From: Vitis vinifera
Lineage: Eukaryota; Streptophyta; Magnoliopsida; Vitales; Vitaceae
Reading direction: 5' to 3'
Assembly: GCF_030704535.1 (NCBI RefSeq)
Contig: NC_081817.1
Location: forward strand, 24,491,001-24,555,000
DNA: 64,000 nucleotides
The notes below the pieces were generated by a model, which was not told the DNA's origin, searched no databases, and was given only the letters and a program-made list of their open reading frames with translations. Both the position numbers and the translations under genes were made by a program. Positions within the stretch are counted from its first letter, which is position 1; each line of letters opens with the position of its first letter. Of this stretch, positions 6,941-58,067 are shown piece after piece.

Positions 6941-6942
6941 AA

Positions 6943-6960
6943 TGGCGCCGTTGCCGGGGA
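6943..6960 (+). other. Primer-binding site, Asp-tRNA type
   Basis: TGGCGCCGTTGCCGGGGA lies two bases after the LTR end and is complementary to the last 18 nt of plant tRNA-Asp(GTC). Athila elements use this primer. Confidence 0.9.
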
Positions 6961-7224
6961 AGGTGCTACTTCACTGTGAATATATCAGCCGGAGGTAACT
7001 TGTGACACTTTTCATGAGTAAGGTGAATTCTATCTCAATTTTCATTTACTAACCTTTTATTTTAGTTTTAGAACATTTTTAACTTAGTTTAGATAAGTTT
7101 CTTTTAGCTTTTAACTTTCATTTTTAGTTTATTTTTCATACTCTGTTTTTCCTTCCGCATGCTCTGTTTTTTTTTTCCTTTTTCTTTGTTTTGTTTGTTT
7201 ACTTTGTTCCAGCTGAATCCGTGC

Positions 7225-8421
7225 ATGCCCTATTGGATTAGAGACCAAGAGGGAAGGTTAGTGCGGATAGAGACTCCACGAGCTATTGAATTAGAGATTA
7301 TTTTAGAAGTCATGGAGAATCAGCCAGAGGATCAACATTCACAACACGGGCAGGGGAATGATCTGAACTTGTATAGGTCCATGAGGGACAGGATGCACCC
7401 TCCGAGGATGAGTGCACCATCTTGCATCATTCCTCCTACAGAGCAATTGATTATCAGGCCACACATCGTGCCTTTGCTTCTTACTTTCCATGGGATGGAA
7501 AGTGAAAATCCATATGCGCACATAAAGGAATTCGAAGATGTGTGCAATACTTTTCAAGAAGGGGGAACAACTATTAAGCTTATGAGGTTGAAGCTCTTTC
7601 CATTCACATTAAAGGACAAAGCCAAGATATGGCTCAATTCCTTGAGGCCGAGAAGCATAAGAACATGGACAGAACTTCAAGCTGATTTTTTGAAGAAGTT
7701 TTTCCCTACTCACAGAACAAATGGATTGAAGAGACAAATCTCCAACTTCTCAGCACGTGAGAATGAAAAATTTTATGAATGCTGGGAGAGGTATATGGAA
7801 GCCATCAATGCATGTCCTCACCACGACTTTGATACATGGCTTTTGGTGAGCTATTTTTATGATGGCATGTCATCTTCAATGAAGCAGATATTGGAGACAA
7901 TGTGTGGGGGCGATTTCATGAGCAAGAACCCTGAGGAGGCTATGGATTTCCTAAGTTATGTCTCAGAGGTTTCCCGTGGATGGGATGAGCCCACTAACAG
8001 AGAAATGGGGAAGAGGCCAGTTCAGCAAATGTCAAAAGGGGGGATGTACAATCTGAGTGAAGACATGGAGATGAAAGCCAAGGTAGCTGCCATGGCTAGA
8101 AAAATAGAGGAAATGGAGTTGAGAAAAGTTCACGAAGTCCAAGCTATTTCAGAACCTCAACAACCAGCCAATTCTTGCTCCATATGTCAATCGTTTGAAC
8201 ATATGGTGGAAGAATGTCCCACCATTCCGACAGTAAGAGAAATGTTTGGGGAACAAGCTAACTTGATTGGCCAATGGAAGCCAAATTCAAATGCTCCCTA
8301 TGGCAACACGTACAACTCTAGCTGGAGGAACCACCCAAACTTTGCATGGAAGCCAAGGCCAAACCCATATCAATCGCCAGCCCAAATCAAGCCAACAGAG
8401 TCAAGGTCAATCCTCAGTTGA
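7225..8421 (+). pseudogene. Athila-like gag
   Basis: I start at ATG 7225 (MPYWIRDQEG) because the upstream in-frame ATG at 7159 only adds a poly-Phe stretch from T-rich leader. The retrotransposon capsid domain runs from about 7440 to 7960 (FHGMESENPYAHIKEFE, then a W-LNSL and F-KKFFP pattern). A nucleocapsid knuckle CX2CX4HX4C lies at 8176-8217. The frame ends at 8421, but the continuing gag-pol sequence lies in the +1 frame from about 8400. In the nested relative the same junction is in one frame, so this is a frameshift lesion and not a family-wide recoding site. Confidence 0.88.
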
Positions 8422-10357
8422 GCAAGCACTCATAAGCCTTAGCAAGGTTATGGGTGACTTTGTGAGTGAGCAAAAATCCATCAACTCTCAACTAAATCAG
8501 AAGATTGACAACGTAGAGAGTACATTGAACAAGAAGATAGATGGGATGCATAATGAGTTGTCTCAGAAAATTGACAACATCCAATATTCCATCTCAAGGC
8601 TCACAAATTTGAACACTGTCAATGAGAAAGGGAAGTTTCCCTCTCAGCCTCACCAAAATCCTAAGGGGATACATGAAGTGGAATCCAAAGACGAGGATTC
8701 TTCAAAGGTGAGAGACGTGCAAGCTATTATCACTTTGAGAAGTGGTAAGGAAGTGCATCAGCCGGAGCATGATCAGAAGAAAGCCAAAGAAGACAAGGCT
8801 GATAGAAATGAAGAAAAGAAGAATGAACGAAAGGGAAAGGAAGTTCAGATGAAAGAAAGCATCATTCCTAGCATGGATGAGGAACCTCAAATTCTTTTAA
8901 AGGAAGGCATGATGAAGAAGCACATGCCTCCTCCATTTCCTCAAGCCTTGCGTGGGAAGAAACCGATCAAGAATGCTTCTGAGATTCTTGATGTGCTAAG
9001 ACAAGTGAAGGTGAATATTCCTTTACTTGATATGATCAAGCAAGTACCCACATATGCAAAGTTTTTGAAGGACTTGTGCACTGTGAAAAGAGGACTCAAT
9101 GTTACAAAGCAAGCCTTCCTAACCGAGCAAGTGAGTGCTATAATCCAATGCAAGTCTCCAATCAAATACAAAGATCCGGGGTGTCCTACAATCTCAGTTA
9201 ATATTGGAGGAACCCAAGTGGAGAAGGCATTGCTTGATTTGGGGGCAAGTGTTAACCTGCTTCCATACTCTGTATACAAGGAGCTGGGGTTGGGAGAACT
9301 CAAGTCAACATCGATCACCCTATCCTTAGCTAACCGATCAGTGAAAATCCCCAGAGGGGTAATAGAGGATGTATTGGTTCAAGTTGACAAATTCTACTAT
9401 CCAGTAGATTTTATGGTGCTTGATACGGATCCCATTGTCAAAGGGATCAACTATGTTCCAATCATCCTCGGAAGACCATTCCTTGCAACATCCAATGCAA
9501 TCATCAATTGTAGGAATGGGGTCATGCAACTCACTTTTGGGAATATGACATTGGAACTCAACATCTTCCATCTATGTCAAAAGCACATCCATCCTGAAGA
9601 AGATGAGGGCCCAGAAGAAGTTTGTATGATAGATACCCTGGTGGAGGAGCATTGTAATCAGAGTATGCTTGATCAGTTTGAAGAGAATCCAGATGAAAGC
9701 CATGAAGATCTTGATGATGGGTTAGCTGAACCCATGGGAATGAATGCCGTTATGTCAAACTGGAGACAAAAGCCAGTGATCCTCCCTTTGTTCAAGGATG
9801 AGGAAGAGATGAAAGAAGCTAAGGATGCAATCCTTAAGCTTGAATTGAAGACCCTTCCTGCCGAGTTGAAGTATGCTTACTTGGAGGAAGGCAATAAAGC
9901 CCCGGTGGTAATTTCTTCTTCTTTAACCGTTTCACAAGAGGACAATCTTCTTAGAATCCTTAGAAAGCACAAGAAGGCCATCGGATGGCAAATTTCTGAT
10001 TTGAAGGGGATAAGCCCATTGATTTGCACGCACCATATTTATATGGAGGAGGGAGCTAAGCCAACTCGTCAGCCACAGAGAAGATTGAATCCTCATATGC
10101 AAGAGGTAGTGCGGGCTGAAGTGTTGAAGCTTCTTCAAGCGGGCATCATTTACCCCATTTCGGATAGCGCTTGGGTGAGTCCAACCCAAGTTGTTCCAAA
10201 GAAGTCCGGGATAACCGTAGTCAAGGGGGAAAATGGAGATGAAGTGTCCACACGCCTCACAACTGGTTGGAGGGTGTGCATTGACTACAGGAAGCTAAAC
10301 GCAGTAACGAGAAAGGATCACTTCCCTTTACCTTTCATGGATCAAGTCCTTGAGAGA
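8403..10357 (+). pseudogene. Athila-like gag C-terminus, protease and N-terminal RT
   Basis: The frame begins with a coiled-coil-like linker (KKIDGMHNELSQKIDNIQYS pattern) and a Lys/Glu-rich spacer. The aspartic protease follows with D-L-G-A-S from 9236 and a partner ILGRPFL near 9467. RT starts around 10040: the template-grip segment, WVSPTQVVPKK, and a YRKLNAVTRKDHFPLPF block are recognisable. It ends at 10357 inside RT where the antisense element is inserted; RT resumes at 19067. The protease has D-L-G rather than D-S/T-G, which occurs in this lineage and need not mean inactivity. Confidence 0.88.
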
Positions 10358-12421
10358 TGATTCGTCCCTAGCAGCGGCAGTGGCAATGACACCATCTGAT
10401 TCGGGGTTCGATCCCCGGCAACGGCCCCATTTGATTCGTCCCTAGCAGCGGCAGTGGCAATGGCACCATTTGATTCGAGGTTTGATCCCCGGCAACGGCG
10501 CCATTTGATTCATGCCCAATTGGTGTCTCAGCTGATTCGTGTCCAGCTGGTGCTCCTTGATTGAGGGATTGATCAACAAAATTTATAACCTATTACACCA
10601 TATACTAGGGTAGCAAAGACAAAGCTACTATAGCATAGTGGCTCTAGGATCGTTCACTGGGATGGGTTTTCACTTCACAAATGATATCAATTCAAAGCTG
10701 GATTGGTGCCTTTTCATTTCAAGGTTAGCTTTAAAAGAAAACATAAAGATTTTTGAATGAAAAAGGTTTAGGTTTTAAGCTAACTAAAAAGAAAGTAATG
10801 GGAATTACTTATGAAGAAAAGTGTTTCTTGGAGTTCAGATCACTAGGCTCGTTCCTCATACAAAATGGAGAGTTCCGGTCACTTGTTTATTTTCCTCGCA
10901 TTAGAGAATTAACATATAGTTCCTTCTCCAACCGGTGTTGTACAGATGCTTCCCATTAATGGGTTCAAACACTAAATCCCTCTCACTGATGCAACTTGCA
11001 AGGGTTCATGCCTCTCACGAGCACTTACCATTCAAGGTGATCTTTAACCTTGGATTACCCGTCAAAAGCTTGCAAGAGATAACTAATGGATGTCTCCTTA
11101 GAGTCCAAAAGCTTACCAAGTGTTGGCTATTCTAGAAAATCCTACCTTCAAGTCACCTCCCAAAGGCTCGCAAGGGGTAAACTAGTGCATTTCCATGGTT
11201 GGAAATCACTTGCCTTACCAAGTGTTGGCCCAGGTGATTTAAAGGCGTTTTAAGTTAACTTAAAAACATAGAAATCACTAACGGGTTACACTTTCTCTTC
11301 ATTAAAAACTAAAACAACAAAACTTCCAAATTATGTATGTGGAAACTTACCCGGCTTTCCTTACTCCAAGAGACAAAAAGCTTAGCCTCTCATCCTCTGT
11401 GGAAAAATCCTCAGAGTTTGGTTGGCTAGAAAGTGAAAATGAAAGAGAAGACAAGAATATATATGAAAAACAGAGCAAGTGCTCTGTTCGTTGATTCTAT
11501 ATATTGGATTACATATATGATTACATTGGATGCAAGGGAATATATATAGAGGAGTTTTTCCAACCTTCCTAGCTAAGAAATCTTGTGGTTGGTGGCTTAC
11601 AAGGAGAAGAATGGAAATTTATACAAAAATATCTGAAGAAAATATCTAAAAGAGTCGGTGCAAAAATATCGGGAAGCTTCAGGCACATTTCGCAGGTGAA
11701 AATGGTGTCTGCGAGATTTCGCAGACACTCAAGAGGGCTGCGAAGTATTTTCGCAACAACAAGTTAAACTCGCAGGGCTGCGAAATTGGCTTCCACCTTG
11801 AGGTTCTCAGTGTTCCAGCTTGCGGCATGTATCGGGTAGCTTCAGGAGGAATTCCATAGCACTGTACAAAAAGGCTGCGAAATTCTCGCAACAAAAGGCT
11901 GATTTCGCAACACTTTGGAGTGATCTGCTTGCAATGGCTGTAACTCCTTCGTTTCAACTCCGAATCGCGCACCGTTTGAAGCATTGGATTCTTGACTTCC
12001 TGAGCTTTGAAATGGTATATAGAATGTAGAAAATGGACTTCGGGAAGTGCTCCAAAAGTGCGCATGAAGACTGCAGCTGCTTGTCCTCTGTTTTCTTCAC
12101 TCTGTTTTCCTCTTCTCCTTGCTTCTCTCCTTGCATACTTTGAACGACTTTGGCAAAGGGCTATGGAGCTCCAAAGCTTGGTTCTTCATGAATTTGAGCT
12201 TCCAAAAGCTTTGCCATGAACTATATACAATTCTCCCTCATTCTTGGATTGTTTTGGTGATCAAATTACTAACAAAAACACCAAAACTTACACAATTTGA
12301 TTAGAAATGATTGCAAGGGTCCTTAACATGTTAATTGGGTTAAAAGGCAATAACTACTACTCAAAAGTGTTTAAAAGGATTAATTACAAGCTACAAAATA
12401 GCACTTTTTGAGTAGTAATCA
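10358..12421 (-). repeat. 3' LTR of gag-only element
   Basis: Read on the minus strand it starts at 12421 with TGATTACTACTCAAAAAG and ends at 10358. Its end (10358-10515 on the plus strand) is a ladder of Asp-tRNA primer-site-like modules. A TTCGCAG cluster sits at about 11685-11910. ORF-like stretches at 10753-10959, 11679-12065 and others recur in the partner LTR and are not genes. Confidence 0.93.
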
Positions 12422-12433
12422 CTCCCCCCAACC
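12422..12433 (-). other. Polypurine tract of gag-only element
   Basis: The minus strand reads GGTTGGGGGGAG immediately before the LTR start. It is identical to the host element tract at 28815-28826, and the preceding bases (GACTAGCAATATGTC) also match. Confidence 0.85.
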
Positions 12434-14165
12434 GACATATTGCTAGTCCCTTAGCAATGAAGGAGAGAAAAATAAAAATAAACAATACTATAATTTACAA
12501 CATCATGCTGATCAAAAAACAGTTTTCAAGTGGCATGATGATCTAACTCTCACATGGAACATTAAAGAAATAAAACTCAAACTTCAACAAGAGTTATCAA
12601 ATAACTTGTCTAATCACAATTCTTAAAGAGAAGGCATTATGCAAATTTAAGCTTTAAAATCATTTCCACTTCCAAAGGATCAAACCTTACTCTTCCACAA
12701 AAATCTAAGTGTTATTTATTAGTTTCCGAATATAGTATGTTGAACTAATCTCTCCCCCCAACCTAGTTCTTTTTCAAAGCTTAGCAAACTAATCAACCTC
12801 CAATAGGCTAAGAACGCACCTCTTTTTTTCACAATTTTTTTTCATTGTAGGAGTATAAGGCTTAAGGGTATTCTTTTTTAAATTGTCCATGTAACGGGGG
12901 TCCATCGATGACTCCCAACCAATTAAGGTTTAGGGCATCAAGTTTTAAGGATCTTTCAACCACTAACTCCTCGGATTTCACCCCGGACTTTTGAGAATGA
13001 ATTTTTAATACCCAAGCACCTACAGTATGTTAAACTCCACCTATCCACCCTTGTAACGAGCATTGAGGTCGGTGACTCCCAACCAATGAAGGCTTAGGGC
13101 ACCAGGCTTAAAAGATTTTCACCATATACCCCTCAAACCTTGCTCGGGTTTCAAGGCAAGCAAACATTTTTTCTTTCTTTTTTTTTTTTCTCTTCAAAGA
13201 CTCATTGGCCTTTTATAAGGTGTCCCAACACTATTAAATAAGGTCAAAGGTACCAAGTCTAAAATTTTCCTAAGTCAAGAGGGAAATAGTTTTTCATCTT
13301 ATACTCGGAACCTATTGTGCACAGTGTGTGGATAGCTTAAAGTGGAAGAACTAAGGTTGACTTCAATAGAAGTTTCAACAATTCATCAACTTTAATAAGC
13401 ATAATACAAAATCTAAGTCAAGTAAAAAGACAAAAATTCAATTTCTCCTATTTTAGTTTGAAAATTTTTCCTTGATAACCATGGAGAGTAGAGAAAAAAA
13501 AACTTAAAAAATTTTAAATTAAGCAAAAAACAACTAAATTACCAAAATAACTTAGCATTCTTAACAATACTTACTTCCTCAACTCTCCCCCCAACCGAGC
13601 TGAACATTGTCCTCAATGTGACAAAAGCGATTAAAAAATAGGGAGGAAGTGGTACCTCATGAGTAACATGGAGTCTAAGTCATATAGGAGAAACCACATG
13701 TTTCAAAAAAAACATAAGAGTTAGTGAGTAGAAGAAATAGAAAAATGCCAAGTTTAAACAAAAATGATGTCTATGTATGATGCATCATCAGTAATACATC
13801 CAATCCCAGAATATAAGACATCAAAACATGGAGCTATGTATACTAATATAATATGTAAAGACCAAAAAATAAAGAGATGATCAAGTAATGGTAAGGTCCT
13901 GTGGAGCTGATGCGTCTGTGGTGGCCTCTTGAATGGGTTGGATCAGGACTTTGGCCTCTGTTCAGGTAGTCTCCTTAGATGGCATAGTCTCCTCAACTGG
14001 AGCTCTCAGTTGGTAGCTATAGGATTTGATGGTTTAAGGAGGTTAGAAATGGAGTGAGAGACTTTGTGTGTGTGATCTCAAGGTGCTCGGGGCTCTCTTC
14101 TTCAGATGCATGGTTGTAGGGCTCTGTTGGCATTTTAGCAACTTCCCTTGGCTTTGCAAAGTGTT
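12434..14165 (-). other. 3' non-coding region of gag-only element
   Basis: No gene is seen. On the minus strand it parallels the host 3' non-coding segment (27780-28812), with the same order of landmarks such as the gattggttgggagtcatcga block and a purine-rich stretch. A second polypurine-like motif lies at 13585-13596. The part at 13890-14165 is less clear and may hold a scrap of the third ORF. Confidence 0.6.
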
Positions 14166-14169
14166 TTCA

Positions 14170-15400
14170 CCAACCTCCCTCAATTACGCAAGTCAATTTC
14201 GCAATTTGAAGGCCCTTTTGAAGCTTGGAGGTGATTTCGCAGCCATTTTGAAGCTTGGAGATCATTTCGCAGAAAAGTGGCATGGTCACAGACCATTTTT
14301 GAAGCTTGGAGCATTTTCGCAGCCATTTCAAAGCTCAAAAGTGATTTCGCAGCCCAAAATTGATTTCGCAGCTCAAAAGTGATTTCGCAGCCATATCGCA
14401 GCTTCGAAATGAAGGGAACTATGCTGCAAATGGCACTCGTGTGCCAAAAATTGGTTTCGCAGCTGCGAAACACCCTTCCAAATGGTGTCTCGGCTGCGAA
14501 ATTCCCGTTCAACTTTGCGCGCTTGTCTTCAAACGGCTATAACTTCTTCATTTCACCTCCAAATTGCATACCGTTTGAATCGCTGGATTCCTGACTTTCC
14601 AAGCTTTGAAACGAGATATCGTATACATAATTTGAGCTCCAGAAAGTACTTCAAAAATGTGTCCAACAGTAGCAAAATTGAGGTGCGACATTTCCGTTCA
14701 TGGTTTGCACAATCATCTTCAAATGGCCATAACTTTTCCGTTTCAAATCCAAATCAAGTACCGTTTAAAGCTATGGACTTCTGACTTCCCAAGCTTTCCA
14801 ACGAGATATTGCATGCATAATTTGAACTTCGGGAAGTGATCGAGATGTGTCCAACAGTTGCCGAAATGGAGGTGCGGCTGTGAAATTGGGATTTTTCACT
14901 TTTTGGGACTTCGCAGCCATTTCGCAGCTGCGAAATGAGGGTCACTGTGCTGCGAAATGGCACTCGTGTGCCAAAAGTGCTTTCGCAGCCGCGAAATCCT
15001 CTGCGGAATGGGACTTTGGCTGCAAAAAAAAAAATGAATTTTTTTTTTTTTTTTTTTTTTTGTTTTTTTTTTTTTTTTGGTTTCGCAGCCATTTTCGCAG
15101 CTGCGAAATGAGGTTCACTGTGCTGCGGAATGGCACTCGTGTGCCAAAAGTGCTTTCGCAGCTGCCAAACACCCTTCCAAATGGAGCTTTCCCTACGAAA
15201 TGGAGGATTTCATGCTTTGATGGTTCGTAGCCGCTTTCGCAGCTGCGAAATGGGGGCTCCTGTGCTGCGAAGTGGCACTCGTGTGCCAAATTTGGTTTCG
15301 CAGCTGCGAAATGCCCTCGCAGAGACTTCTACAGTGTTGCGGAATGGTTTGGCAACAAAATGCTGATTTCGCAGCGGCTGCGAAATTTCGCAGACCCCTG
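14170..15400 (-). repeat. TTTCGCAGCTGCGAAA palindrome and hairpin array in gag-only element
   Basis: Dozens of TTCGCAG/CTGCGAA half-sites occur, several joined as the perfect 16-bp palindrome (for example near 14456, 14920, 15096, 15237, 15296). A second motif, TGGCACTCGTGTGCCA, able to form a 6-bp stem with a 4-nt loop, recurs near 14430, 14958, 15130 and 15268. Two ~170-bp modules (about 14500-14670 and 14690-14850) resemble a segment of the element's own LTR (11930-12060). An A/T homopolymer block lies at 15016-15078. Confidence 0.85.
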
Positions 15401-15640
15401 TTTTTCCCCTGTTTCTCCCCTGTTTTCGCTCCGTTTGACTCCGATTTTGCTCCGATTTTTTTTTCTTCAATTTCTTTGCAATTCCTCTTGATTTTGATCA
15501 TCCAAAAACCTATATTACATCAAAACAAATTAGAATTAAAGCATTGAAATCAAAATTAAAGCATTGAAATCAAAATTAAAACAAGTAAAAAGCAAAACAA
15601 GAAGATATGGACTAGCTAGTCTTTAAAAAGACTAAGTCCA

Positions 15641-16777
15641 TCAAAAAATTTGATCCTGATTTAGCTTGCCCGGATCCCATATAAAGTTTGCATCTCTCAC
15701 TTGAGACTTGGTCTGTATGATTTTGTCATACAAAGCTTGGAGAAAAGGTGAAGGCATGTGTTTCTTCATTTCTTCCTTGATGACTATCCTCTGTGGTTCT
15801 CTTTGTACATTAACATCATAGCCATCTTTCTCTATGCTTTTCCCCTTTTTCTTTCCTTTGATTTCCTCCCTCTTTTCTTTCTCTGTTTCACTCTCTACCT
15901 TATGCTCTAGCTTGCATGTGGGCAGATCAACCTCTTTACCACTCCTCAGAGTGATCACTTCTTTGACTTCCTTCTTTTGTGAAGGTTTTCCCTCCTTAGC
16001 CTCCATTTCATGGATACTCATAGAATTTTGATAAGGTTGAGAAGGAGAGTTTTCTTTCTCTTGCACTGTGTTGAGGTTGGCAAGCCTTAAGATTGAATCT
16101 TGGAGAATATCTAACTTATGAGATAGATCATTTTGCATTTCATCCATCCTTTTATTCAACATACTCTCCACTCTATCAATTCTTTGATCGACTCGAGCAT
16201 TGGTGGCTTCTTGCTTTCCAATAAAATCTCCCATTACCTTGGTGAGATTAGCTATTGCTTATTCAAGACTTGAAGCTTGCTGTGGTGCTTGAGCAGGTTG
16301 CTGATACTGAGGTGGCTGTGGTTTCCAAGAGAAATTTGGATGGTCCCTCCAATTGGAATTGTAGGTGTTGCAATCACCAAACATTTCCCTCTCGGATGGA
16401 ATGGTAGGACACTCATCCACCAAGTGCTCATATGATAGACAAATGGCACAAGGCATAGCTTGCAATGGTGTTTGAGAGATGGCTTGCACTTCTTGCATCT
16501 GGTTCATTTCTAGCTCTTCCAATCTCCTTTCCATAGCTGCAATCTCTGCCTTCATGTTCATACCATCATTCAAAATATACATCTCACCCTTAGCTTTAGG
16601 TTGAGACATCATTCTTCCCATATCTCGAGCATTTGGTTCATCCCATTCTCTTGAGACTTCAGCCACATAACTCATGAAGTTCATGGCTTCCTCTGCTATG
16701 GTATTCAATATGGCATGCACAACTAGCAACTTGTGAATTAAAAACAAAGAACACAAAAGAAAACAAAAGAAAAACAA
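15641..16777 (-). pseudogene. Gag remnant of gag-only element
   Basis: On the minus strand, the open stretch from 16777 joins capsid sequence late in the domain (EEAMNFMSYVAEVSREWDEP), so most of the capsid domain is deleted. The zinc knuckle CX2CX4HX4C (CAICLSYEHLVDEC) survives near 16430-16475. The frame stops at a TAA near 16259-16261 where the host relative has a Gln codon, then continues in the same frame from 16234 with the coiled-coil linker (RIDRVESMLNKRMDEMQ) and a Lys/Glu-rich spacer, ending at 15641. Sequence is lost before the protease. It is unlikely to make functional capsid. Confidence 0.85.
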
Positions 16778-16940
16778 TTCAAAGAAAGAAAATTAAGGTA
16801 AACTAAAAACTAAATAAAAGGTATACTAAAATATGAACAATAAAGAAATAAAAAGAGTTAGTAAAAAGAAAAGAAAAGTCACCAAACTTGTGATGAAAAT
16901 CACAAGTACTCTCAAAAGATCATATCACTGCAAAGTGGCA

Positions 16941-17002
16941 CCATCCCCGGCAACGGTGCCATTTGATTCGTCCCTAGCAGCGGTAGCGGCAACGGCGCCA
17001 TT
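16941..17002 (-). other. Primer-binding site pair of gag-only element
   Basis: Read on the minus strand, the LTR end is followed by AATGGCGCCGTTGCCG, matching 14 nt of the Asp-tRNA complement, then diverging. About 40 bp further is a second copy, TGGCACCGTTGCCGGGGA, matching 17 of 18 positions. Either could prime; the second has the longer match. Confidence 0.7.
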
Positions 17003-19066
17003 TGATTCGTCCCTAGCAGCGGCAGTGGCAATGACACCATCTGATTCGGGGTTCGATCCCTGGCAACGGCGCCATTTGATTCGTCCCTAGCAGCGGCAGT
17101 GGCAATGGCACCATTTGATTCGAGGTTTGATCCCCGGCAACGGCGCCATTTGATTCATGCCCAATTGGTGTCTCAGCTGATTCGTGTCCAGCTGGTGCTC
17201 CTTGATTGAGGGATTGATCAACAAAATTTATAACCTATTACACCATATACTAGGGTAGCAAAGACAAAGCTACTATAGCATAGTGGCTCTAGGATCGTTC
17301 ACTGGGATGGGTTTTCACTTCACAAATGATATCAATTCAAAGCTGGATTGGTGCCTTTTCATTTCAAGGTTAGCTTTAAAAGAAAACATAAAGATTTTTG
17401 AATGAAAAAGGTTTAGGTTTTAAGCTAACTAAAAAGAAAGTAATGGGAATTACTTATGAAGAAAAGTGTTTCTTGGAGTTCAGATCACTAGGCTCGTTCC
17501 TCATACAAAATGGAGAGTTCCGGTCACTTGTTTATTTTCCTCGCATTAGAGAATTAACATATAGTTCCTTCTCCAACCGGTGTTGTACAGATGCTTCCCA
17601 TTAATGGGTTCAAACACTAAATCCCTCTCACTGATGCAACTTGCAAGGGTTCATGCCTCTCACGAGCACTTACCATTCAAGGTGATCTTTAACCTTGGAT
17701 TACCCGTCAAAAGCTCACAAGAGATAACTAATGGATGTCTCCTTAGAGTCCAAAAGCTTACCAAGTGTTGGCTATTCTAGAAAATCCTACCTTCAAGTCA
17801 CCTCCCAAAGGCTCGCAAGGGGTAAACTAGTGCATTTCCATGGTTGGAAATCACTTGCCTTACCAAGTGTTGGCCCAGGTGATTTAAAGGCGTTTTAAGT
17901 TAACTTAAAAACATAGAAATCACTAACGGGTTACACTTTCTCTTCATTAAAAACTAAAACAACAAAACTTCCAAATTATGTATGTGGAAACTTACCCGGC
18001 TTTCCTTACTCCAAGAGACAAAAAGCTTAGCCTCTCATCCTCTGTGGAAAAATCCTCAGAGTTTGGTTGGCTAGAAAGTGAAAATGAAAGAGAAGACAAG
18101 AATATATATGAAAAACAGAGCAAGTGCTCTGTTCGTTGATTCTATATATTGGATTACATATATGATTACATTGGATGCAAGGGAATATATATAGAGGAGT
18201 TTTTCCAACCTTCCTAGCTAAGAAATCTTGTGGTTGGTGGCTTACAAGGAGAAGAATGGAAATTTATACAAAAATATCTGAAGAAAATATCTAAAAGAGT
18301 CGGTGCAAAAATATCGGGAAGCTTCAGGCACATTTCGCAGGTGAAAATGGTGTCTGCGAGATTTCGCAGACACTCAAGAGGGCTGCGAAGTATTTTCGCA
18401 ACAACAAGTTAAACTCGCAGGGCTGCGAAATTGGCTTCCACCTTGAGGTTCTCAGTGTTCCAGCTTGCGGCATGTATCGGGTAGCTTCAGGAGGAATTCC
18501 ATAGCACTGTACAAAAAGGCTGCGAAATTCTCGCAACAAAAGGCTGATTTCGCAACACTTTGGAGTGATCTGCTTGCAATGGCTGTAACTCCTTCGTTTC
18601 AACTCCGAATCGCGCACCGTTTGAAGCATTGGATTCTTGACTTCCTGAGCTTTGAAATGGTATATAGAATGTAGAAAATGGACTTCGGGAAGTGCTCCAA
18701 AAGTGCGCATGAAGACTGCAGCTGCTTGTCCTCTGTTTTCTTCACTCTGTTTTCCTCTTCTCCTTGCTTCTCTCCTTGCATACTTTGAACGACTTTGGCA
18801 AAGGGCTATGGAGCTCCAAAGCTTGGTTCTTCATGAATTTGAGCTTCCAAAAGCTTTGCCATGAACTATATACAATTCTCCCTCATTCTTGGATTGTTTT
18901 GGTGATCAAATTACTAACAAAAACACCAAAACTTACACAATTTGATTAGAAATGATTGCAAGGGTCCTTAACATGTTAATTGGGTTAAAAGGCAATAACT
19001 ACTACTCAAAAGTGTTTAAAAGGATTAATTACAAGCTACAAAATAGCACTTTTTGAGTAGTAATCA
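17003..19066 (-). repeat. 5' LTR of gag-only element
   Basis: Same length as 10358-12421. The visible differences are two in the primer-site ladder (about 17060 and 17070) and two adjacent ones near 17715. It ends on the plus strand with gagtagtaatca directly before the AGAGA duplication. Confidence 0.93.
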
Positions 19067-20010
19067 AGAGAGTATCTGGGCATCCTTTTTATTGCTTCTT
19101 GGATGGGTATTCCGGGTATTTCCAAATAGAGATTGATGTGGAGGACCGGGAGAAGACTACCTTCACTTGTCCATTCGGCACCTATGCTTATAGGCGGATG
19201 CCTTTTGGATTATGCAACGCTCCTGCTACCTTCCAAAGATGCATGCTTAGCATCTTCAGTGACATGGTTGAACGAATCATGGAAGTCTTCATGGATGACA
19301 TAACTGTGTATGGGACTTCTTTTGAGGATTGTTTGTCACATCTTGAAGATGTTTTGAAAAGATGCATAGAGAAAGACCTCGTACTCAATTGGGAGAAGTG
19401 CCATTTTATGGTAAATCAAGGTATTGTTCTTGGGCACGTAATCTCAAAGAAGGGTATAGAGGTAGATAGAGCTAAGGTGGAACTAATTGTGAAGTTGCCA
19501 CCTCCCACCAATGTAAAAGGAATAAGGCAATTCCTTGGGCATGCCGGGTTCTATAGGAGGTTTATAAAGGATTTTTCCAAGATTGCCAAACCTCTTTGTG
19601 AATTATTGGTGAAGGATGCCAAGTTTGAGTGGGATGATAAATGTCAAAGGAGTTTTGAGCTTCTTAAGCAATTCTTGACATCAGCACCCATTGTGAGAGC
19701 ACCAAATTGGGAGTTTCCATTTGAAGTGATGTGTGACTCAAGTGATTATGCCATTGGAGCTGTTTTGGGACAAAGAGAAGATGGTAAACCTTATGTGATC
19801 CACTATGCAAGCAAGTCTTTGAATGATGCTCAAAGGAATTACACCACTACTGAGAAGGAATTACTTGCTGTGGTGTATGCTTTGGATAAGTTCAGAGCTT
19901 ATTTGATAGGGTCTTCCATTGTGATATTCACGGATCATTCAGCTTTGAAGTATTTGCTAACCAAGCAAGATGCCAAGGCTAGGTTGATTAGGTGGATACT
20001 TTTGCTCTAA
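19067..20010 (+). pseudogene. Athila-like RT (C-terminal part) and RNase H
   Basis: RT resumes at the insertion point. FLDGYSGYFQI holds the first catalytic Asp and VFMDD (19288-19299) the catalytic pair; thumb and connection follow. RNase H (about 19710-20010) shows FEVMCDSSD, HYASKSL, TEKELLAVVYAL and FTDHSAL. The frame stops at TAA 20008-20010, where lineage members keep a Gln codon; the downstream sequence continues in the same frame. This single change separates RT-RNase H from integrase. Confidence 0.9.
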
Positions 20011-21450
20011 GAGTTCAACCTCCAGATCAGAGATAAGAAAGGTGTTGAGAATGTGGTAGCTGACCACTTGTCAAGGCTCAACATTGCTCATGACACCCAT
20101 GGACTTCCCATAAATGATGATTTCCCTGAGGAATCCTTGATGCTTGTGGAGGAAGTGCCATGGTTTGCACACATTGCCAATTACTTGGTCACGGGAGAAA
20201 TACCAAGTGAATGGAGCTCTCAGGACAAGAAGAATTTCTTTGCCAAGGTCCATGCATATTATTGGGAGGAGCCTTTTCTCTTCAAGTATTGTGCGGACCA
20301 AATTATAAGGAAGTGTGTGCCTGAACAAGAGAAGCATGGGATCCTATCTCATTGCCATGAGAATGCATGTGGATGCCACTTTGCCTCTCAAAAGATGGCA
20401 ATGAGAGTTCTTCAATTGGCTTTTTGGTGGCCCTCACTTTTTAAGGATGCCCATGAGGTAAGTAAAGGATGTGATAAGTGCCAAAGACTAGGCAAGCTTT
20501 CAAGGAGAAACATGATGCCTTCGAACCCCATCTTGATAGTGGATCTTTTTGATGTTTGGGGCATAGACTTCATGGGACCTTTCCCTATGTCTTTTGGCCA
20601 CTCCTACATCTTGGTAGGAGTTGATTATGTTTCAAAGTGGGTTGAAGCTATACCCTGTAGAACCAATGATCACAAAGTGGTTCTCAAATTCCTAAAAGAA
20701 AACATCTTCTCGAGGTTTGGAGTGCCTAAAGCAATCATCAGTGATGGAGGCACTCACTTTTGCAACAAGCCCTTTGAAGCTCTTTTGGCCAAGTACGGAG
20801 TCAAGCATAAGGTAGCTACACCTTATCATCCTCAGACGAGTGGCCAAGTAGAGCTAGCCAACCGGGAAATTAAGAACATCTTGATGAAGGTGGTGAACAC
20901 CAATAGGAAAGATTGGTCTGTTAAGCTCCTTGATTCCCTATGGGCGTATAGGACGGCTTATAAGACTATCCTTGGGATGTCACCGTACCGTCTTGTTTAT
21001 GGCAAAGCTTGCCATCTTCCCGTTGAGATTGAGTTCAAGGCATGGTGGGCCATTAAAAAGCTCAACATGGATTTAACTAAGGCTGGGCTAAAGAGGAGTT
21101 TGGATTTGAATGAGCTTGAGGAATTGAGAAATGATGCCTATCTCAACTCAAAAATAGCTAAGGAAAAGCTAAAGAGATGGCATGATCAGTTGGTGACCAA
21201 GAAAGAATTTTTCAAGGGACAAAGAGTCTTGCTATATGACTCTAAGCTTCACCTATTTCCGGGAAAACTCAAATCAAGGTGGGTAGGGCCTTTTGTCATC
21301 CACCAAGTACACTCACATGGAGTAATTGAGTTACTCAACTCAAATAGTGCAAAGACCTTCAAAGTCAATGGCCATCGTCTCAAGCCATTCATTGAACCAT
21401 TCAAGCAAGACAAGGAGGAAATCAACCTCCTTGAGCCACAGAAAGCCTAA
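20011..21450 (+). pseudogene. Athila-like integrase
   Basis: The frame runs uninterrupted from the end of RNase H (VADHLSRL) to 21450. An HHCC zinc domain is visible ([10 protein letters not shown], later CDKCQRLG). The catalytic core has D in [10 protein letters not shown] in ISDGGTHF and E in [16 protein letters not shown], so the DDE triad is intact. The C-terminal GPY/F-type module RWVGPFVI is present; no chromodomain is seen. This is the best preserved coding block of the element, but it depends on an upstream frame that has a stop. Confidence 0.92.
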
Positions 21451-21659
21451 TCAGAAAAGGGTTAGATGGGCTTGGTTTCACCAATGTCCATATTTTTGTT
21501 TAAGTTTACTAATTTGAAAGCTTTATTAATTCTTTTGATTTTAATTTTGGTTTAAAGTTTTGTTAATTATTTGTAACTTCATCTTTTTGAATGATCTTTT
21601 GTAGGAGGAATTGCAAAGAAAATGAAGGAAGGTCCCAGGGAGCAAAAAGGAGCTCAAAA

Positions 21660-22065
21660 CCAAGAAATTTCAATGGTCTGCGAAATTTCGCAGCCCAAAA
21701 TAGCCCCCTGCGAAAATGGCCCTCCGCTGCGAAATAAATTTCGCAGCCCAACACCCTCCTCTGCGAAAATTTTCGCAGCTGCGAAACCACCTCTTGGCAC
21801 TCGTGTGCCATTTCGCAGCACAGTAACTCCATTTCGCAGCTGCGAAATGGCTGCGAAATCCCCAAAGCGTTAAATTTTCAATTTTCGCAGCGATAGCCTC
21901 ATTTCGCAGGGTGTTTCGCAGCTGCGAAACACCCCTTTGGCACTCGTGTGCCATTTCGCAGCACAGTAACCCAATTTCGCAGCTGCGAAATGGGCTGCGA
22001 AAAGGGCCCTCCTCTGCGAAAATGCCCTTTTGTTGCGAAATCCACCCTCGGCTGCGAAAATTAAA
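21660..22065 (+). repeat. TTTCGCAGCTGCGAAA palindrome and hairpin array after integrase
   Basis: The perfect palindrome occurs near 21773, 21833, 21914 and 21976 among many half-sites. TGGCACTCGTGTGCCA recurs near 21796 and 21936. Order and spacing match the reverse complement of the array in the gag-only element (14170-15400), so the array is a shared lineage feature between integrase and the third ORF. Confidence 0.85.
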
Positions 22066-22419
22066 ACGACTTTTAGCATTCAGTTTTTAAACGGTATAAA
22101 TTCCAAATTTCTAATAAAACCGGTCATTTGAACTTTAAATAGTACCAGAGAAGACCCAAAAACAGAGCAACCTTCCATCTTCTCCCTCTCGCCTGAACCT
22201 CAGCCGCGCGCACCTCCGCCCATCTCCGCCGGCCCGCCATGGCAAGAACCCGAGGAGCTAAGTCCTCCCCCCCGTCAAGCCGTACGAGGGTTTCATCAAA
22301 GACCCCTGTCCAAGGCTCCACATCCGAGCCTCCGCGACCACCGCGCGTCCCACCTCCAGTTGAGGGCGCACCAATGAGCCCTCCGGTCAGGCGCTATCAT
22401 ACACGGGCGAGTAGCCAGC

Positions 22420-25400
22420 TGTAGACCCTCAATTTTGTCCCTTTAGCACATGTCTTTAAAATTCATTTTCAATGCTCCACAATAGTTCCTTGGTGGCCCA
22501 TGGCTACTCATACCACTTACCTTTTTCTGAGTCACCTCGGAGATTTTGGTTGAGGGATTATTTGATCCCTTATTGTGACCCTTGGCAGCCCTAACTTAGA
22601 CTTAGGCTTTTCTTGTTTTTTTAGGATAGCTTTTAGATACACTTAGCCCATTAGGCACTACCCTAGGCCCACTTAGTCTCACCTTAGGCCCGTTTAGGCA
22701 CACTAGGCCTACGAAGACTTTTATTTTATTTTATTTTATTTTATTTATTTATTTATCTATTTTGTTTTTAATTTTAATTTTATGATTATCATTCACTTTT
22801 TATTGGTTATCTTCCTCTTTATATTATTTTCCTTAACTTATTTATTTATTTATTATTTTTACCATTTTTTAATTTATTTACTTATTTATCTATACATGCA
22901 ATTATTTAACTTCAAAAATTTCATGTTTTTTGCAAGGAAACTTACCATTGGAGTTTAAGGAAGATGGGACTCTCCTTGGAAGGTTTTGGAGGGGAATTTG
23001 AAATTGGGAAGATTGCTTTTGATTGGAGGATTTAAAAAAAGAAGAGAAGAAGAAAGGAAGGAGGAGAATTTTCCTTTTTGGAAACAAATTTAGGTCTTGA
23101 GGGGTGATATATATAGGTGAGAAAAGGAAAAGAATAGGGAGATTTTTTTGGGGGCAGAGCACACGGAATTTTGAAAAAAAGCAAGGGACTTCGAACGGAG
23201 ATCGTGCTGTCATTTAATCATCAAGAGAGGATTTTCTCTTTGACTTCAAAGGTTAGTTTTCTATATAGTACTTTTATTTAGCTTAATTCTTTAGTTTAAA
23301 TAATCATATCGAATAAAGTTTGTATTTTTAATCCCAATTAGTTTGATTTTAACTTGTTTTTTAGTTTAAATGTATTTTGTTGATTTTAATTCTTAAGTTT
23401 AAATAATTGTATTGAATAAAGTTTGTATTTTTAATCCCAATTAGTTTGATTTCAATTCATTTTTAATCTAAATGCATTAGTTGATTTTAATTCTTAAGTT
23501 TAAATAATTGTATTGAATAAAGTTTGTATTTTTAATCCCAATTAGTTTGATTTCAATTCATTTTTAATTTAAATGCATTAGTTGATCTTAATTCTTTGTT
23601 TTAAATAATCACGTTAAATAAAGTTTGTATTTTTAATCCCAATTAATTTGATTTCAATTCGTTTTTTAGTTTAAATGTATTTTGTTGATCTTAATTCTTT
23701 AGTTTAAATAATCATATCGAATAAAGTTTGTATTTTTAATCCCGATTAGTTTGATTTTAATTTGTTTTTTAGTTTAAATGTATTTTGTTGATCTTAATTC
23801 TTGACTTTAAATAATCACGTTAAATAAAGTTTATGTTTTTAATCTCAATTAGTTTGATTCCAATTCGTTTTTAGTTTAAATACATTTTATTGATCTTAAT
23901 TCTTAAGTTTAAATAATCATATCGAATAAAGTTTGTATTTTTAATCCCAATTAGTTTGATTTTAACTTGTTTTTTAGTTTAAATGTATTTTGTTGATTTT
24001 AATTCTTAAGTTTAAATAATTGTATTGAATAAAGTTTGTATTTTTAATCCCAATTAGTTTGATTTCAATTCATTTTTAATTTAAATGCATTAGTTGATCT
24101 TAATTCTTTGTTTTAAATAATCACGTTAAATAAAGTTTGTATTTTTAATCTCAATTAGTTTGATTTCAATTCGTTCTTAGTTTAAATACATTTTGTTGAT
24201 CTTAATTCTTAAGTTTAAATAATCATATCGAATAAATTTTGTATTTTTAATCCCAATTAATTTGATTTTAATTTGTTTTTAGTTTAAATGTATTTTGTTG
24301 ATTTTAATTCTTTACTTTAAATAATCACGTTAAATAAAGTTTGTGTTTTTAATCTCAATTAGTTTGATTTCAATTCGTTTTTAGTTTAAATACATTAGTT
24401 GATCTTAATTCTTAAGTTTAAATAATTATGTTAGATAAAGTTCATGTTTTTAATCCCAAAATAGTTTATTTTTAATTTATTTGTTAGTTTAAATATGTAT
24501 GTGATTTTAATTTATTAGTTTAAATAATCATGTTAGATAAAATTTATATTTTTTTAATTCTAAATTAGTTCAGTTTTAACCTATCTTTTAGTTTAAGTAT
24601 ATTTGTGATTTTAATTCATTAGTTTAAATAATCTTGTTAGATAAAGTTCATATTTGAAATTCCGATTTAGTTTAGCTTTTATTTATTTTTAATTTGGATG
24701 TGTTTGTAATTGTAATTTAGTAGTTTAATTAATCTTATTAAATAAAGTTCATGTTTTTAATTACAATTTAATTTAGTTTTAATTTGTTCTCCACTTGTAT
24801 GTGTTTGTGATTTGAATACATTAGTTTAATTAATCCCGTTAGATAAAGTTTAATCTTGATTTAATTTATTTTTTTAGTCTAGAGGCATTTATGTGTTTAG
24901 TTAATCTTATGTTAATTATGGATCGTTATTCTCAATTTATGCGCTTCTTGAATCCTTGTTGCTAATTCTTGATGGATATTTCATTAGCTTATTTGATCTA
25001 AATATTAATAATTTATTGCTTTGATAGTTTCCTTTTTGTTCAAAGGCCATTGGAAAATCATGAAGATTGGCCTCTACCATCACCATTATCATTTTTGTTA
25101 ATTACTAAAAAAAAATTTTTACTTTGAGGTTTCATTTTTGTTTTGTTGGGTATTTTATTTTTTATATTTTATTTTTTCCAAATTAATTCCTTTTATTTTA
25201 AAATAAAATACTTTTCTAAAAAAAAAATCATTTTAAAAATCTATTTCAAAAACTCATTTAGAGTCCTCAGGATCAAAATCTCTTTTTTTTTATTATTTAA
25301 AAATAATATGCAACCATATCTTGTTCGGTTTGCATCCTTCTCGGTTTTCAACAAAAATTTTGGTTTTGAACAAAAACACGAATCAAAGCTTGTGGTCCCA

Positions 25401-26296
25401 AATAATGGGATGATTCTGGGCTAAATTCGTGTATATCAATTGGGGAATTGGTGAAACCCCTACATAAGAAAATCTTTTCAAAAATTATTTTTGTTGCCAT
25501 TTTTGTCACTTGTTGAAATTATGTCTATCTTTTTAGGAATTGTATATAAGATGTGTGTGATAATTAATGTTTTCATATACTTTGATAATTTTTGTTATGC
25601 TAATTAGATAACAAGCATGCTAGGGTTTCTTTATTTTATTATTATCTAATCCCTCATGTCTTATGGGAGCGCATTGTAAGTTATTTATGCTATCCAGGTA
25701 CGCCCCCCCTATCGCCTACTTTCTAAATTTTGTAAATAATCGTGTCACTATGAAGTATGCATATATTTGATAATCCTTAGGTGTTTAGATGTATGTTTGA
25801 TTCACTATGATTAAATACATGTTGTGTGTTATACTTCTATACTAACTCTGATGTTTTATGATAGCGCTTGAGAAGCGGTCCGGGTACGCATCCTAACCTT
25901 TTTTTTATGGCAATTTGATCTTGTTTAGCATGCAAATTTTTTGAAATCACCTAGCCTACTTAGGTATCCATAATTAACCGATTAATTGTCATATTCCCCT
26001 TAACTTAATTAGTAGAGACCTCTTTAGGGCTTAGAGGGGTGCTACCTCCTAGAGGTACCTTCCCAATAAGTAACCTGATCCCCAGACCAAGACTTGGGTT
26101 TTCAAAGACACGCTTTTCCAAAAATTATGGAGTCATTTTTTTTAGGGTTTTATTTCTTGTTTTATTTTCCCTTCAAAAATAAAAATAAAATAAGTGGCGA
26201 CTCCAACTTTTTTTCAAAAAATCAAATTTTCACAAATAAATAAAAAGCGAGTCTCGCCGATCGAGTGGGGACGCACGTGAAAAATGCGGGTACACA
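22420..26296 (+). mobile_element. Solo LTR (3.88 kb) of a Tat/Ogre-like gypsy element
   Basis: The insert starts TGTAGACCCTCAATTTTGTC, ends GGGTACACA and is flanked by CCAGC (22415-22419, 26297-26301). It has no second LTR, internal domain or element ORF. Its right end carries GTGGCGACTCC and CGAGTGGGGACGC strings that I associate with long LTRs of Tat/Ogre gypsy elements; this family call is recall only. The simplest reading is a solo LTR left by recombination between two LTRs. Short ORFs at 22902-23213 and 25143-25424 are AT-rich chance frames. Confidence 0.82.
23270..24890. repeat. Tandem array, ~102-bp unit, about 15-16 degenerate copies
   Basis: The landmark aataaagttTGTatttttaa recurs near 23312, 23415, 23516, 23616, 23720, 23823, 23924, 24027, 24127, 24229 and 24331, then more degenerate copies to about 24845. 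Early units fall into variant types by the bases before the landmark (catatcg, ttgtattg, cacgtt). The array sits inside the solo LTR. Confidence 0.85.
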
Positions 26297-27439
26297 CCAG
26301 CCACCCAAGAAGAAAGCTAAGGTATCTGAGCCCACGTTAATTGATTTATCAGAGCCAGAAGAGCCAGCTATAGAGCCTCAGCCGTCTCCGCCATCTCGTC
26401 CAGCTTCAAGGTCTCGGCCGTCTCAGCCGTCTCAACCGTCTCAGCCAGCTTCAAGGTCTCGGCCGTCTCGGCCGTCTCAGCCGTCTCAGCCAGCTTCAGG
26501 GTCTCGGCCGTCTCGGCCGTCTCAGCCGTCTCAACCAGCTTTAGAGCCTCAGCCGTCTCGGCCGCCGCCTACAGATTCTCAGATCCCCTCCGGCATGACT
26601 CCTGAGATGATTATCAAGCGCCCCATGCTCACTCAGCCGCCCATAGAGGGTAATTTAGACTGCAGGGCTAGGCCTTTCCACTCTGAGCTCTGTTTTGACG
26701 TGGCCGCTTTCAGACTTCAGCCCCAGCTCAGGGACTCCTTCCATCTGCTCCAGAGGTATCATATGGAACAATTGCTTACTCCAAGGGATTTCTTTTATCC
26801 CCGTGTGGCAATGGATTTTTATCAATCCATGACCACACACCATGTCCGAGATCCTATTGTCATCCACTTCACCATAGACGGACGTCATGGTATTCTAGGA
26901 GCTAGGCACATAGCAGAGACATTGCGCATTCCCTACGAGCCAGCTAGGCCAGAGGATTATCGAGTATGGACTAATCCTTCCCCGAGCGACATAGTTCGTA
27001 TTCTGTCCAGAGGGGCATCCACAGGCCAGTATCTACAGAGGAAGGAGCTCCCTCCTAGCATGTTTTTCATAGATGCTCTTCTCCTGCCACACCACGGCCT
27101 CCCTCTGCTTCTCCTGCCACACCACAGCCTTCCCCTGTTTTTTCAGCCACATCACAGCCCTCCTCTTCAGCAGAGCCGAGGACTACCATATCCATTTCCG
27201 AGTACAGAGCTCTATGTCACACTTTGCAGACATTGACCACTTCACAGAGCACTCTTACTCAGGAGATGACAGCTCTTCGTGCTCATCAGGAGCAAATTAT
27301 TGCTACTCAGACTCAGCATAATGCCATTCTGAGGCAGATTCAGAGCCATCTGGGTATTCCATTAGCTCCTCAGCACCAGATGCCTGCCCCCTTAGAGCCC
27401 ACAGAACCGACTCCAGGAGACACAGAGACATCCACTTGA

Positions 27440-28812
27440 GCCATTATCTTCACATCATCATCACCCATCTACTTGATCATTTCCATAGTTTACTTTATGT
27501 ATTTTCTTTATGCACTTTCTTATTATAGTAGCACTTGCAATCCCATGCTTTTGTTATGATATATTTTGGGATTGGTTGTATTACTTGTTATCATCTTTAA
27601 TGTACTTTCATGAAGTAATACAACTCTATCATTTTTTTGCATACTCTTGGTATTATTTTATTTTTATTCCTCTACTCATATCTATTTTCTTTTTGAAACA
27701 TGTGGTTTCTCCTTATCTACTCAAATTACATCCACTCAGGAGGCACCACTTCCTCCCTGTAATTTCAATCGCTCATACCACATTGAGGACAATGCTCAGC
27801 TTGGTTGGGGGGAGACAGTTGAGGAAGGAAGTTTTTTATTATTATTATTGTTAATACTAAATTTTTTGGTAATTTAGGTTACTTTTGTTTAATTTTAAAA
27901 TTTTTCTCTATGGTTGTTAAAGATAATTTCTCAAAAATAAAATAGGATAAGTCGAGTTTTAACTTAATTATTTAAGTCTTTGAGTTTGTTTTATGCTTTC
28001 AAAGTTAAAGCTCTCTTTGATTTTGAACTTATTTCTTCCATTTCAAGCTTTACACACACAGTGCACATTAGATCCCGGATATATGATGTAAAACTTTCTC
28101 ACCTTCTAAGCTTAGGAAAATTTTGACTTGGTTCATTACTTAACCTCTTTTTAATAGTGTTGGGACACCTCAAAAAGACCAATGAGTCTTAGAAAAAGAA
28201 AAAGAGAAAAAGAAAAAGGAAAAGTGAAAAAGAAAAAGAAAAAGAGAATAAGCTTCTATTCTTTCCTTGAAACCTAAGCATGATCCGAATGGGTGGCGAA
28301 AGCCTTTAAAACCCGATGCCCTAAACCTTGATTGGTTGGGAGTCATCGATCCTCTGCTTGCTACATAGGTGAATTGGTTAAAGTTTAGTGAGTAAAAAGA
28401 ATTGTGAATAAGAAGGTGCGTTCCTAACCTATTAAGAGTTGGTTAATTTTGCCTTTGTTCGAGAAAAGCTTAGGTTGGAGGGTGAGGATAGTTGTATATA
28501 CTATATCCGGAGCCTAATCTCGTTAACACTTAGCTCATTATGGAAGAGTTTGATTTGGAACCTTGAGAGTAGAGATCTTTTGATACTTAATTGCATAATC
28601 TCCACTCTTTGTACTTTTTGTTTAAGTTTTAGCTTTGACAGCTCCTATTGCATTTTGAATCTTCATATCTTTAGTTCACCATGTGAGATGTGTTTTGATA
28701 TCGGTCATGCCACTCAATTATTTTTTTGGAATGATTTGCATGACCTCTTTTATGTTTACTACTTTGTTTGCTTAGTTTTTCTCTCCTTAATTGCTAAGGG
28801 ACTAGCAATATG
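27440..28812 (+). other. 3' non-coding region of Athila-like element
   Basis: No gene is seen. It contains a second polypurine-like tract (27801-27816), a (GAAAAA)-like purine run (28193-28252) and segments mirrored in the gag-only element. The ORFs at 27510-27854 and 28439-28864 are low-complexity and run into the LTR. Confidence 0.6.
27801..27816 (+). other. Internal second polypurine-like tract
   Basis: TTGGTTGGGGGGAGAC shares its 12-base core with the true tract at 28815-28826. The gag-only element has the same core at the equivalent place (13585-13596, minus strand). Confidence 0.55.
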
Positions 28813-28813
28813 T

Positions 28814-28826
28814 CGGTTGGGGGGAG
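28814..28826 (+). other. Polypurine tract of Athila-like element
   Basis: CGGTTGGGGGGAG ends directly at the first base of the 3' LTR, the expected plus-strand primer position. Confidence 0.88.
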
Positions 28827-48506: not shown

Positions 48507-48822
48507 GAGGGTGTTTGTTTTTTTAGTTTTTGGCTGAAAATAATTTGCTTTCAGACTTTAAGTTGTTTGTTTTTCTACTTTTCGTCACTTATTATAAATT
48601 TTTGGCTGAATAGAAAAAACTAAAATTTGGCTGAATAGAAAAAGCCAAAATATTTGGCTTTTCTAAATGGAAAAAGTATTATGTTGTTTTTCATTATTTT
48701 TTAATGCTTAATAGAAATAAAATATTACAAAAACAAACAACCTAATACTTAATAATATTAAGCACTATTTAGTTTTAATCTATATTTAAAATTAAGCTAA
48801 AAAAACAAAAAACACCTTATGC
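48507..48822. mobile_element. MITE-like element in annexin intron 3 (proximal copy)
   Basis: About 316 bp has inverted ends: ggtgTTTGTTTTTTTAG on the left and the reverse complement of ggtgttttttgttttttta on the right. It is flanked by TTA, which would fit a PIF/Harbinger-type 3-bp duplication. The distal gene lacks this segment within a larger missing stretch. Confidence 0.5.
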
Positions 48823-49011
48823 CTTTTGGTCCATAAATGAACTTCAAATTGGATCCAACATATGATAAAGCTTGAAGTCCAATTTATTATGGTTGGGCTC
48901 AAGGGTTGTGGTACAGGTTCTTGGATGGAGTTTTTGAAGTGTTGGACCAAACTAAAATGAAATCTCAACTATTGAGTTGATATTTGATGATACTGATAGA
49001 TAATTAAACTA

Positions 49012-52689: not shown

Positions 52690-52740
52690 ACTTCTTCTTG
52701 AAGTTCAATAAAAAAGAAAATGAGTTTTCAGCCAAAACCT
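52200..52740. repeat. Dispersed repeat related to 1620-2190
   Basis: Collinear with 1620-2190 as described there; it overlaps the start of unit 2 of the segmental duplication, so it may have helped set the junction. Confidence 0.5.
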
Positions 52741-54609: not shown

Positions 54610-54630
54610 GCCATCAGAAGTGGAAATGAC

Positions 54631-58017: not shown

Positions 58018-58067
58018 AGAGAGGTTTTGGATAAATAAAAAAAAAAAAAACTCGTTAGAGTCTTTAC

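Follow-up and report, generated by a model that had tools for sequence, protein, structure and literature searches.

During standard reverse transcription, both LTR copies come to end with the sequence immediately upstream of the primer site, and the sequence downstream remains leader. Each family is usually taken to have a fixed LTR end, which serves in the detection, classification and dating of elements. Voronin and Pathak reportedly examined HIV-based vectors carrying two primer-binding sites in 2004, with frequent dual initiation according to the title of that work. In the grapevine family described here, a single RNA likewise holds several tRNA sites, but these form a natural array and are not two engineered sites, and the choice among sites appears to be recorded in integrated copies.

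Athila-lineage gypsy elements (Diaspora, Calypso) resemble the present locus in the gypsy domains of its outer element and in the use of a tRNA-Asp primer site. In the part of its description that was available (PMC1142308), Diaspora has a single primer site, which lies 5 bp after the LTR and is complementary to 18 nt of tRNA-Asp; in the grapevine family, in contrast, each junction of a tandem array is followed, 2 nt later, by a site, and the LTR end is variable. In one survey of plant LTR elements, 6% had tRNA-Asp sites, as given in the accessible portion of PMC6317226. For Cereba and Quinta, the available sections of PMC11302176 describe a non-autonomous partner that keeps LTR termini and primer site. 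The inner element studied here is similarly a probable non-autonomous member with LTR termini and primer site kept, but its helper is a putative one, and the array is found in the non-autonomous element, whereas the outer element has a single site. Neither a natural tandem primer-site array nor a sliding LTR end was found in the open-access literature, as far as our partial coverage of it extended.

A nested gypsy element and its module array

The locus lies in a stretch of 64,000 nucleotides of Vitis vinifera (assembly GCF_030704535.1, contig NC_081817.1, positions 24,491,001 to 24,555,000), which was analysed as a whole and is referred to as the window. Within it, an inner element is inserted in a related outer one, with the following features.

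5252..30477, plus strand: related outer gypsy element that holds the inner insertion, with LTRs at 5252-6940 and 28827-30477
17003..19066, minus strand: 5' LTR of the inner element, 2064 bp, 99.8% identity to 10358-12421, with TCTCT target duplication
10358..12421, minus strand: 3' LTR of the inner element, 2064 bp, ending in GAATCA, with two 74-bp units
19067..19071, no strand: upstream copy of the target site duplication TCTCT, exact
10353..10357, no strand: downstream copy of the target site duplication TCTCT, exact
16259..16792, minus strand: gag remnant of the inner element, 46% identity over 187 aligned positions to the gag ORF of the outer element

The LTRs of the inner element start with TGATTAC and end with GAATCA (minus-strand reading). 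Because TCTCT is repeated exactly on both sides of this LTR pair, the LTR end falls at 17003 (10358 in the 3' LTR), the position at which the initial annotation had placed it. The outer element encodes gag, protease, RT, RNase H and integrase domains, its RT being 98% identical to a Vitis vinifera protein, and has a single ordinary tRNA-Asp primer site at 6943. In the window copy of the inner element, whose internal ORFs were the ones checked for pol domains, none of the three had a match in Pfam, one of them being the gag remnant, and no pol domain was found in them. Judged by this copy, we infer that the inner element is a non-autonomous partner of gypsy type; its polypurine tract and LTR start agree with those of the outer element, and together with the common primer site they would be consistent with a helper relationship between the two. 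ARAGORN predicted no tRNA gene within the window.

The array begins at junction 0, the last conserved LTR motif (GGGCATGAATCA), and runs outward as A35, B39, A35, B39, LTR end, a 39-nt module and site P, with a repeat unit of 74 bp (A35+B39).

17116..17150, minus strand: module A1, 35 nt, within the 5' LTR, TGGCGCCGTTGCCGGGGA, 18/18 to tRNA-Asp, former primer site
17077..17115, minus strand: module B1, 39 nt, within the 5' LTR, degenerate site TGGTGCCATTGCC with 6/18 mismatches
17042..17076, minus strand: module A2 (A'), 35 nt, within the 5' LTR, former primer site, 17/18
17003..17041, minus strand: module B2 (B'), 39 nt, last of the 5' LTR, GAATCA at the LTR terminus
16964..17002, minus strand: current primer-site module, tRNA/B hybrid, 39 nt, with 14 nt as in tRNA-Asp and then B sequence
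16944..16961, minus strand: last primer site P before the leader, TGGCACCGTTGCCGGGGA, 17/18 (TGGCACC), not adjoining the LTR end here
10471..10505, minus strand: module A1 of the 3' LTR
10432..10470, minus strand: module B1 of the 3' LTR
10397..10431, minus strand: module A2 of the 3' LTR, with the substitution TGGGGCC, unlike that of A2 in the 5' LTR
10358..10396, minus strand: module B2 of the 3' LTR, ending at the LTR terminus

Every module terminates in GAATCA, mirroring the LTR start TGATT, and a ready LTR end therefore precedes each A. The initial annotation had described at least four tRNA-Asp-like modules inside the LTR and two more after its end, and four and two were borne out at the 17003 junction, as was its statement that both LTRs share the ladder, the 3' LTR carrying the same four modules. 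The primer-site matches of 14 nt and then 17/18 that it gave were recovered at 16964-17002 and 16944-16961. The present primer site does not plainly continue this ladder: it is a tRNA/B hybrid, and the expected A module is absent.

Sites of the type TGGCGCCGTTGCC (13 nt, at most 2 mismatches) occur nine times in the window, eight in the inner element and one in the outer, versus 0.12 expected, a count that was reached in 0 of 100 shuffles. All matches were made to a presumed plant tRNA-Asp sequence. Against this sequence, the common A form is complementary over 26 nt (26/26; 0/2000 shuffles) and the common P form over 19/19, so that the family has a tRNA-Asp primer site as Diaspora does; by analogy, the Diaspora site supports tRNA-Asp as the probable site type. 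Seven segments were tried in the shuffle-based scoring of tRNA similarity. Scored alone, module A beyond its first 18 nt gave a match that 13% of shuffles reached, and the tail of B held a weaker second tRNA-Asp match (0.3% of shuffles; 2.6% for the whole of B).

Older rungs upstream of junction 0 were looked for and rejected: a 27-nt GAATCA element at 17151-17177 had no tRNA similarity (its score was reached by 95% of shuffles), and a 60-nt stretch further upstream had none either.

LTR ends at different junctions across the family

Copies were collected by two genome searches, one with the array as query (49 matches; 40 of 560 first-look candidates scored), which favoured long arrays, and one with the LTR body, blind to the array (40 matches; 40 of 3495 first-look candidates scored); the sample is part of the genome's copies and not a census. 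For each element, n denotes how many 74-bp units precede the last site on the 5' side, and k how many the 3' LTR holds. The following were left out: L013 (no duplication, and a 3' tail that breaks off inside a B module), L025 (its second LTR, only 3.6 kb away, may belong to another element), L010 (incomplete 3' end), L014, L028 and L035 (without an identified 3' partner), L041/L042 (opposite strand), L049 and L050 (no LTR found), and a minus-strand LTR in L012, whose start follows a polypurine tract.

The A35+B39 array recurs family-wide in this Vitis genome. Target duplications supported 39 LTR ends (35 exact, four with one mismatch), from 27 paired elements and 12 solo LTRs. Duplications were exact in 20/21 elements of the first paired set (L019 after a one-base shift), with one mismatch in L026; in 5/6 of the second paired set, with one mismatch in L078; and in 10/12 solo LTRs, with one mismatch in 2/12, the unit number of solo LTRs being one that could have changed during their formation by recombination. 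One set of 33 LTR tails comprised seven pairs, eight single 0-unit LTRs and 11 tails without a duplication test (L083, L085, L094, L095, L096, L099, L100, L103, L105, L106, L109), the latter being outside the 39 ends, as are three single 0-unit LTRs with no LTR start in the sequence examined (L086, L097, L110). The pair L101/L102, for which only the last two duplication letters were available, is counted among the 28 pairs below and outside the 39 ends. By unit number, the supported ends fell into k=0 (9), k=1 (16), k=2 (10), k=3 (3) and k=4 (1), which means that the family has termini at 0-4 units rather than one fixed LTR terminus beside one primer site.

The 28 paired-LTR elements showed n>k in 14 cases, equal numbers in 12, the window copy with an extra half-unit, and the reverse in one. 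Discordant pairs thus stood at 14 versus 1 (sign test, p=0.0005). Given as n/k, they are distributed as follows.

2/2: L009, L016, L017, L021, L022, L033, L043
1/1: L079, L081, L087, L091
0/0: L102, the simplest state, with junction 0 and then P directly
2/1: L015, L023, L024, L026 (with an extra terminal A), L029, L045, L047
3/1: L011, L012, L019, L020
2/0: L027, L039
1/0: L093 (pair L093/L092)
Window copy: 5' side with two units and the hybrid module, 3' LTR with two units
Reverse case: L107/L108, 5' side with B+P, 3' LTR with A+B

Eleven elements combine k=1 with n of at least 2; the single unit of their 3' LTR was nearest to unit 1 of the 5' side in 10, and tied in the remaining one. Insertions of this family end at different junctions, with target duplications, and the units in each 3' LTR are the first ones of that element's 5' array. 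The last 286-360 bp before the array were free of mismatches (gaps uncounted) in seven pairs with n>k (L012, L015, L020, L027, L029, L045, L047), which indicates that the discordance is not due to age. On the 5' side, the LTR end directly precedes a full tRNA-Asp site in 26 of the 28 pairs. The module immediately following it is an A module (14 pairs), P (12 pairs) or the hybrid (the window copy), that of L107 not being assignable. The A and P modules in this position have 0-1 mismatches in 18, compared with 5-8 in 135 B modules (hybrid excluded).

Probable priming at alternative sites

These patterns would be accounted for if the array consisted of tandem cassettes, each made up of an integrase-ready end GAATCA, two nucleotides and a tRNA-Asp primer site. 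In each round of reverse transcription, the tRNA would prime at any full site, that is, an A module or the terminal P; the sequence upstream of the chosen site would become LTR in both copies, that downstream would stay leader, and the LTR end would move outward or inward by 74 bp per step. Priming at site j gives k=j-1, and n should therefore be at least k, with a 3' LTR made up of the first k units. Both predictions of internal priming, the inequality and the identity of the first unit, agree with what was observed (14 versus 1; 10/11, with one tie). Since the 3' unit is nearest to 5' unit 1 in 10/11 elements, priming most likely took place at a different site from one insertion to another, with an LTR end that slides both ways. 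We regard it as very probable that multi-site tRNA priming on a cassette array, and with it a sliding LTR end, explains the family structure in this gypsy family of grapevine. The choice of tRNA site as the cause of the LTR-end position is suggested by the arrangement of integrated sequences, and, as far as LTR ends speak to it, initiation may occur at either site on one RNA.

The single reverse case, L107/L108 (G000:C3, about 11169290-11177170), speaks against a sliding end unless a later deletion or a second template occurred. It is young, with an exact target duplication (ACTTA) and LTR bodies identical over 110 bp.

The initial annotation had read the ladder as stepwise outward growth, in which a local duplication of the LTR-end/primer-site segment is followed by a lasting move to distal priming, with module number rising along the phylogeny. 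The part of it by which former primer sites become LTR was upheld: such sites lie inside LTRs, LTRs with 0, 1, 2, 3 and 4 units exist, L102 has its single site right after junction 0, and LTR ends lie at different GAATCA junctions in different copies (28 pairs), which was the check proposed in the annotation itself. The one-way direction of growth was not upheld, because 0-unit LTRs with 1 or 2 units behind them (L027, L039, L092/L093) show that the LTR shrinks too. The combination k=0 with n=2 is contradictory under lasting distal priming, and the 11 elements in which a one-unit 3' LTR goes with two or more 5' units count against it as well. When k was placed on the LTR-body tree, 8 changes were needed, compared with a mean of 7.9 after shuffling (18 LTRs, the two without an assigned k forming a group of their own). 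The expected rise of module number along the phylogeny is therefore missing, which rules out stepwise growth as a phylogenetic trend, and since k changes as often as in shuffles, the LTR end must be re-set often. Overall, we consider stepwise outward growth improbable.

A fixed primer site, with the 74-bp array altered after integration by tandem-repeat slippage or unequal crossing over, is very improbable. The array is indeed a tandem repeat, its units are more alike within an element than between elements (3.26 versus 3.94 differences; permutation p=0.003, 26 elements), and L107/L108 may be a case of such a change. Slippage should, however, be symmetrical, yet n>k was found 14 times and the reverse once; random contraction would not favour unit 1, to which the single 3' unit was nearest in 10/11 elements and tied in one; and discordance is present also in LTR pairs otherwise free of mismatches over the compared stretch. 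Asymmetry and unit identity together rule it out as the main cause. Scarcely credible is a fixed distal primer site with reverse transcriptase passing over units during strong-stop synthesis and the LTR thereby becoming shorter: jumps that keep the register seem to occur at GAATCA-like motifs (see the second array of L020 below), but skipping predicts n=k, with both LTRs shorter and the distal site directly next to them, and does not account for the intact units that follow the LTR end in 14 elements.

Under priming at alternative sites, the LTR end in this family seems to depend on which tRNA site was used in each cycle, and LTR length and apparent boundary would therefore differ between sister copies. 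Tools that pair LTRs or require an adjoining primer site may misplace the boundary of such elements, and may also call the extra leader units an insertion. Because insertions keep the record, the family would represent a natural experiment on primer-site choice, tRNA inheritance and second-strand transfer, questions that in plants otherwise need engineered two-site vectors.

Possible site renewal, array turnover and other repeats

Sites with a mismatch amounted to 3/26 among used and 17/52 among unused sites (one-sided Fisher p=0.037), the used counts excluding L107 and the window hybrid and the unused ones including those of the window. Before six elements were added, the values had been 2/20 versus 15/47 (p=0.052, or 0.108 with the window hybrid taken as a mismatch), and in the youngest pairs they were 0/13 versus 5/28 (p=0.13). 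The difference is no more than suggestive of used sites being cleaner, as if copied from the tRNA. Two individual cases are clearer. Both LTRs of L012 and of L029 have T14 in module 1, and the used module 2 has the tRNA letter. At the used site of the window, the B-specific positions 4, 9 and 14 are all tRNA letters and the rest is B; among 125 loci examined, a tRNA/B hybrid occurred only at L001, which is the window locus. With less support than for the choice of site, we infer that tRNA sequence replaces that of the used site, and that array length changes during strand transfer. According to the available part of PMC5371799, the site copied from the tRNA is not retained in Ty3.

The LTR of the window copy ends in B and B follows A elsewhere, and a third A probably therefore once stood between this B and the hybrid. 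Priming would have occurred at that third A module, after which the tRNA-copied plus-strand end would have annealed one module too far, onto B; such a slipped transfer would delete the A module and leave the 14-nt tRNA/B hybrid. The window's primer site would then be the product of a plus-strand transfer slipped by one module.

The greater likeness of units within elements implies that arrays turn over locally. It is conceivable, although on balance doubtful, that the array is both made and kept by reverse transcription, through tRNA capture, cassette gain and loss by slipped transfer. The plus-strand stop is placed at m1A58 in the accessible text of PMC13191261. Here, the plus-strand end would acquire copied tRNA sequence, with read-through beyond the point, 18 nt in, at which copying normally stops, and this sequence would be captured beside the LTR end; read-through is proposed because A modules match 26 nt. 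A cassette could be gained by initiation at two sites or by transfer to another strand, where the new n would equal the k of the LTR-giving strand plus the units left on the receiving strand, and lost by a slipped transfer of the kind proposed for the window copy. If this were true, each integrated copy would record the primer site used and the course of second-strand transfer.

A second array, of four 74-bp units, is found in L020 (G000:C2, about 517730-518043), about 1.8 kb into the leader. Its site is of the GAGTCAAACGGAGC type and resembles the GAATCAAATGGCGC junction, and we read the second array as the result of template switching at this short likeness of GAGTCAAACGGAGC and GAATCAAATGGCGC. 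An array at this leader position was absent in 16/16 other loci with both flanks, the flanks being incomplete in 6/22. In L026 (G000:C16:18337500), the 5' array ends in an A fused to the leader at AATGGTGCCA, a stretch common to B and leader, and P is gone.

Several other repeats were noted in the window. The LTR and leader of the inner element contain many TTTCGCAGC/GCTGCGAAA repeats in both orientations (11573-11800, 14380-15317, 18218-18445), which may form hairpins, and a block resembling them lies at 21771-22002. Self-comparison of the window revealed an array of tandem repeats, roughly 100 bp each, at 23239-24866, and long direct duplications of about 75-87% identity within 43976-51086 and 52677-64000, for example 45712-47531 versus 59321-61208.
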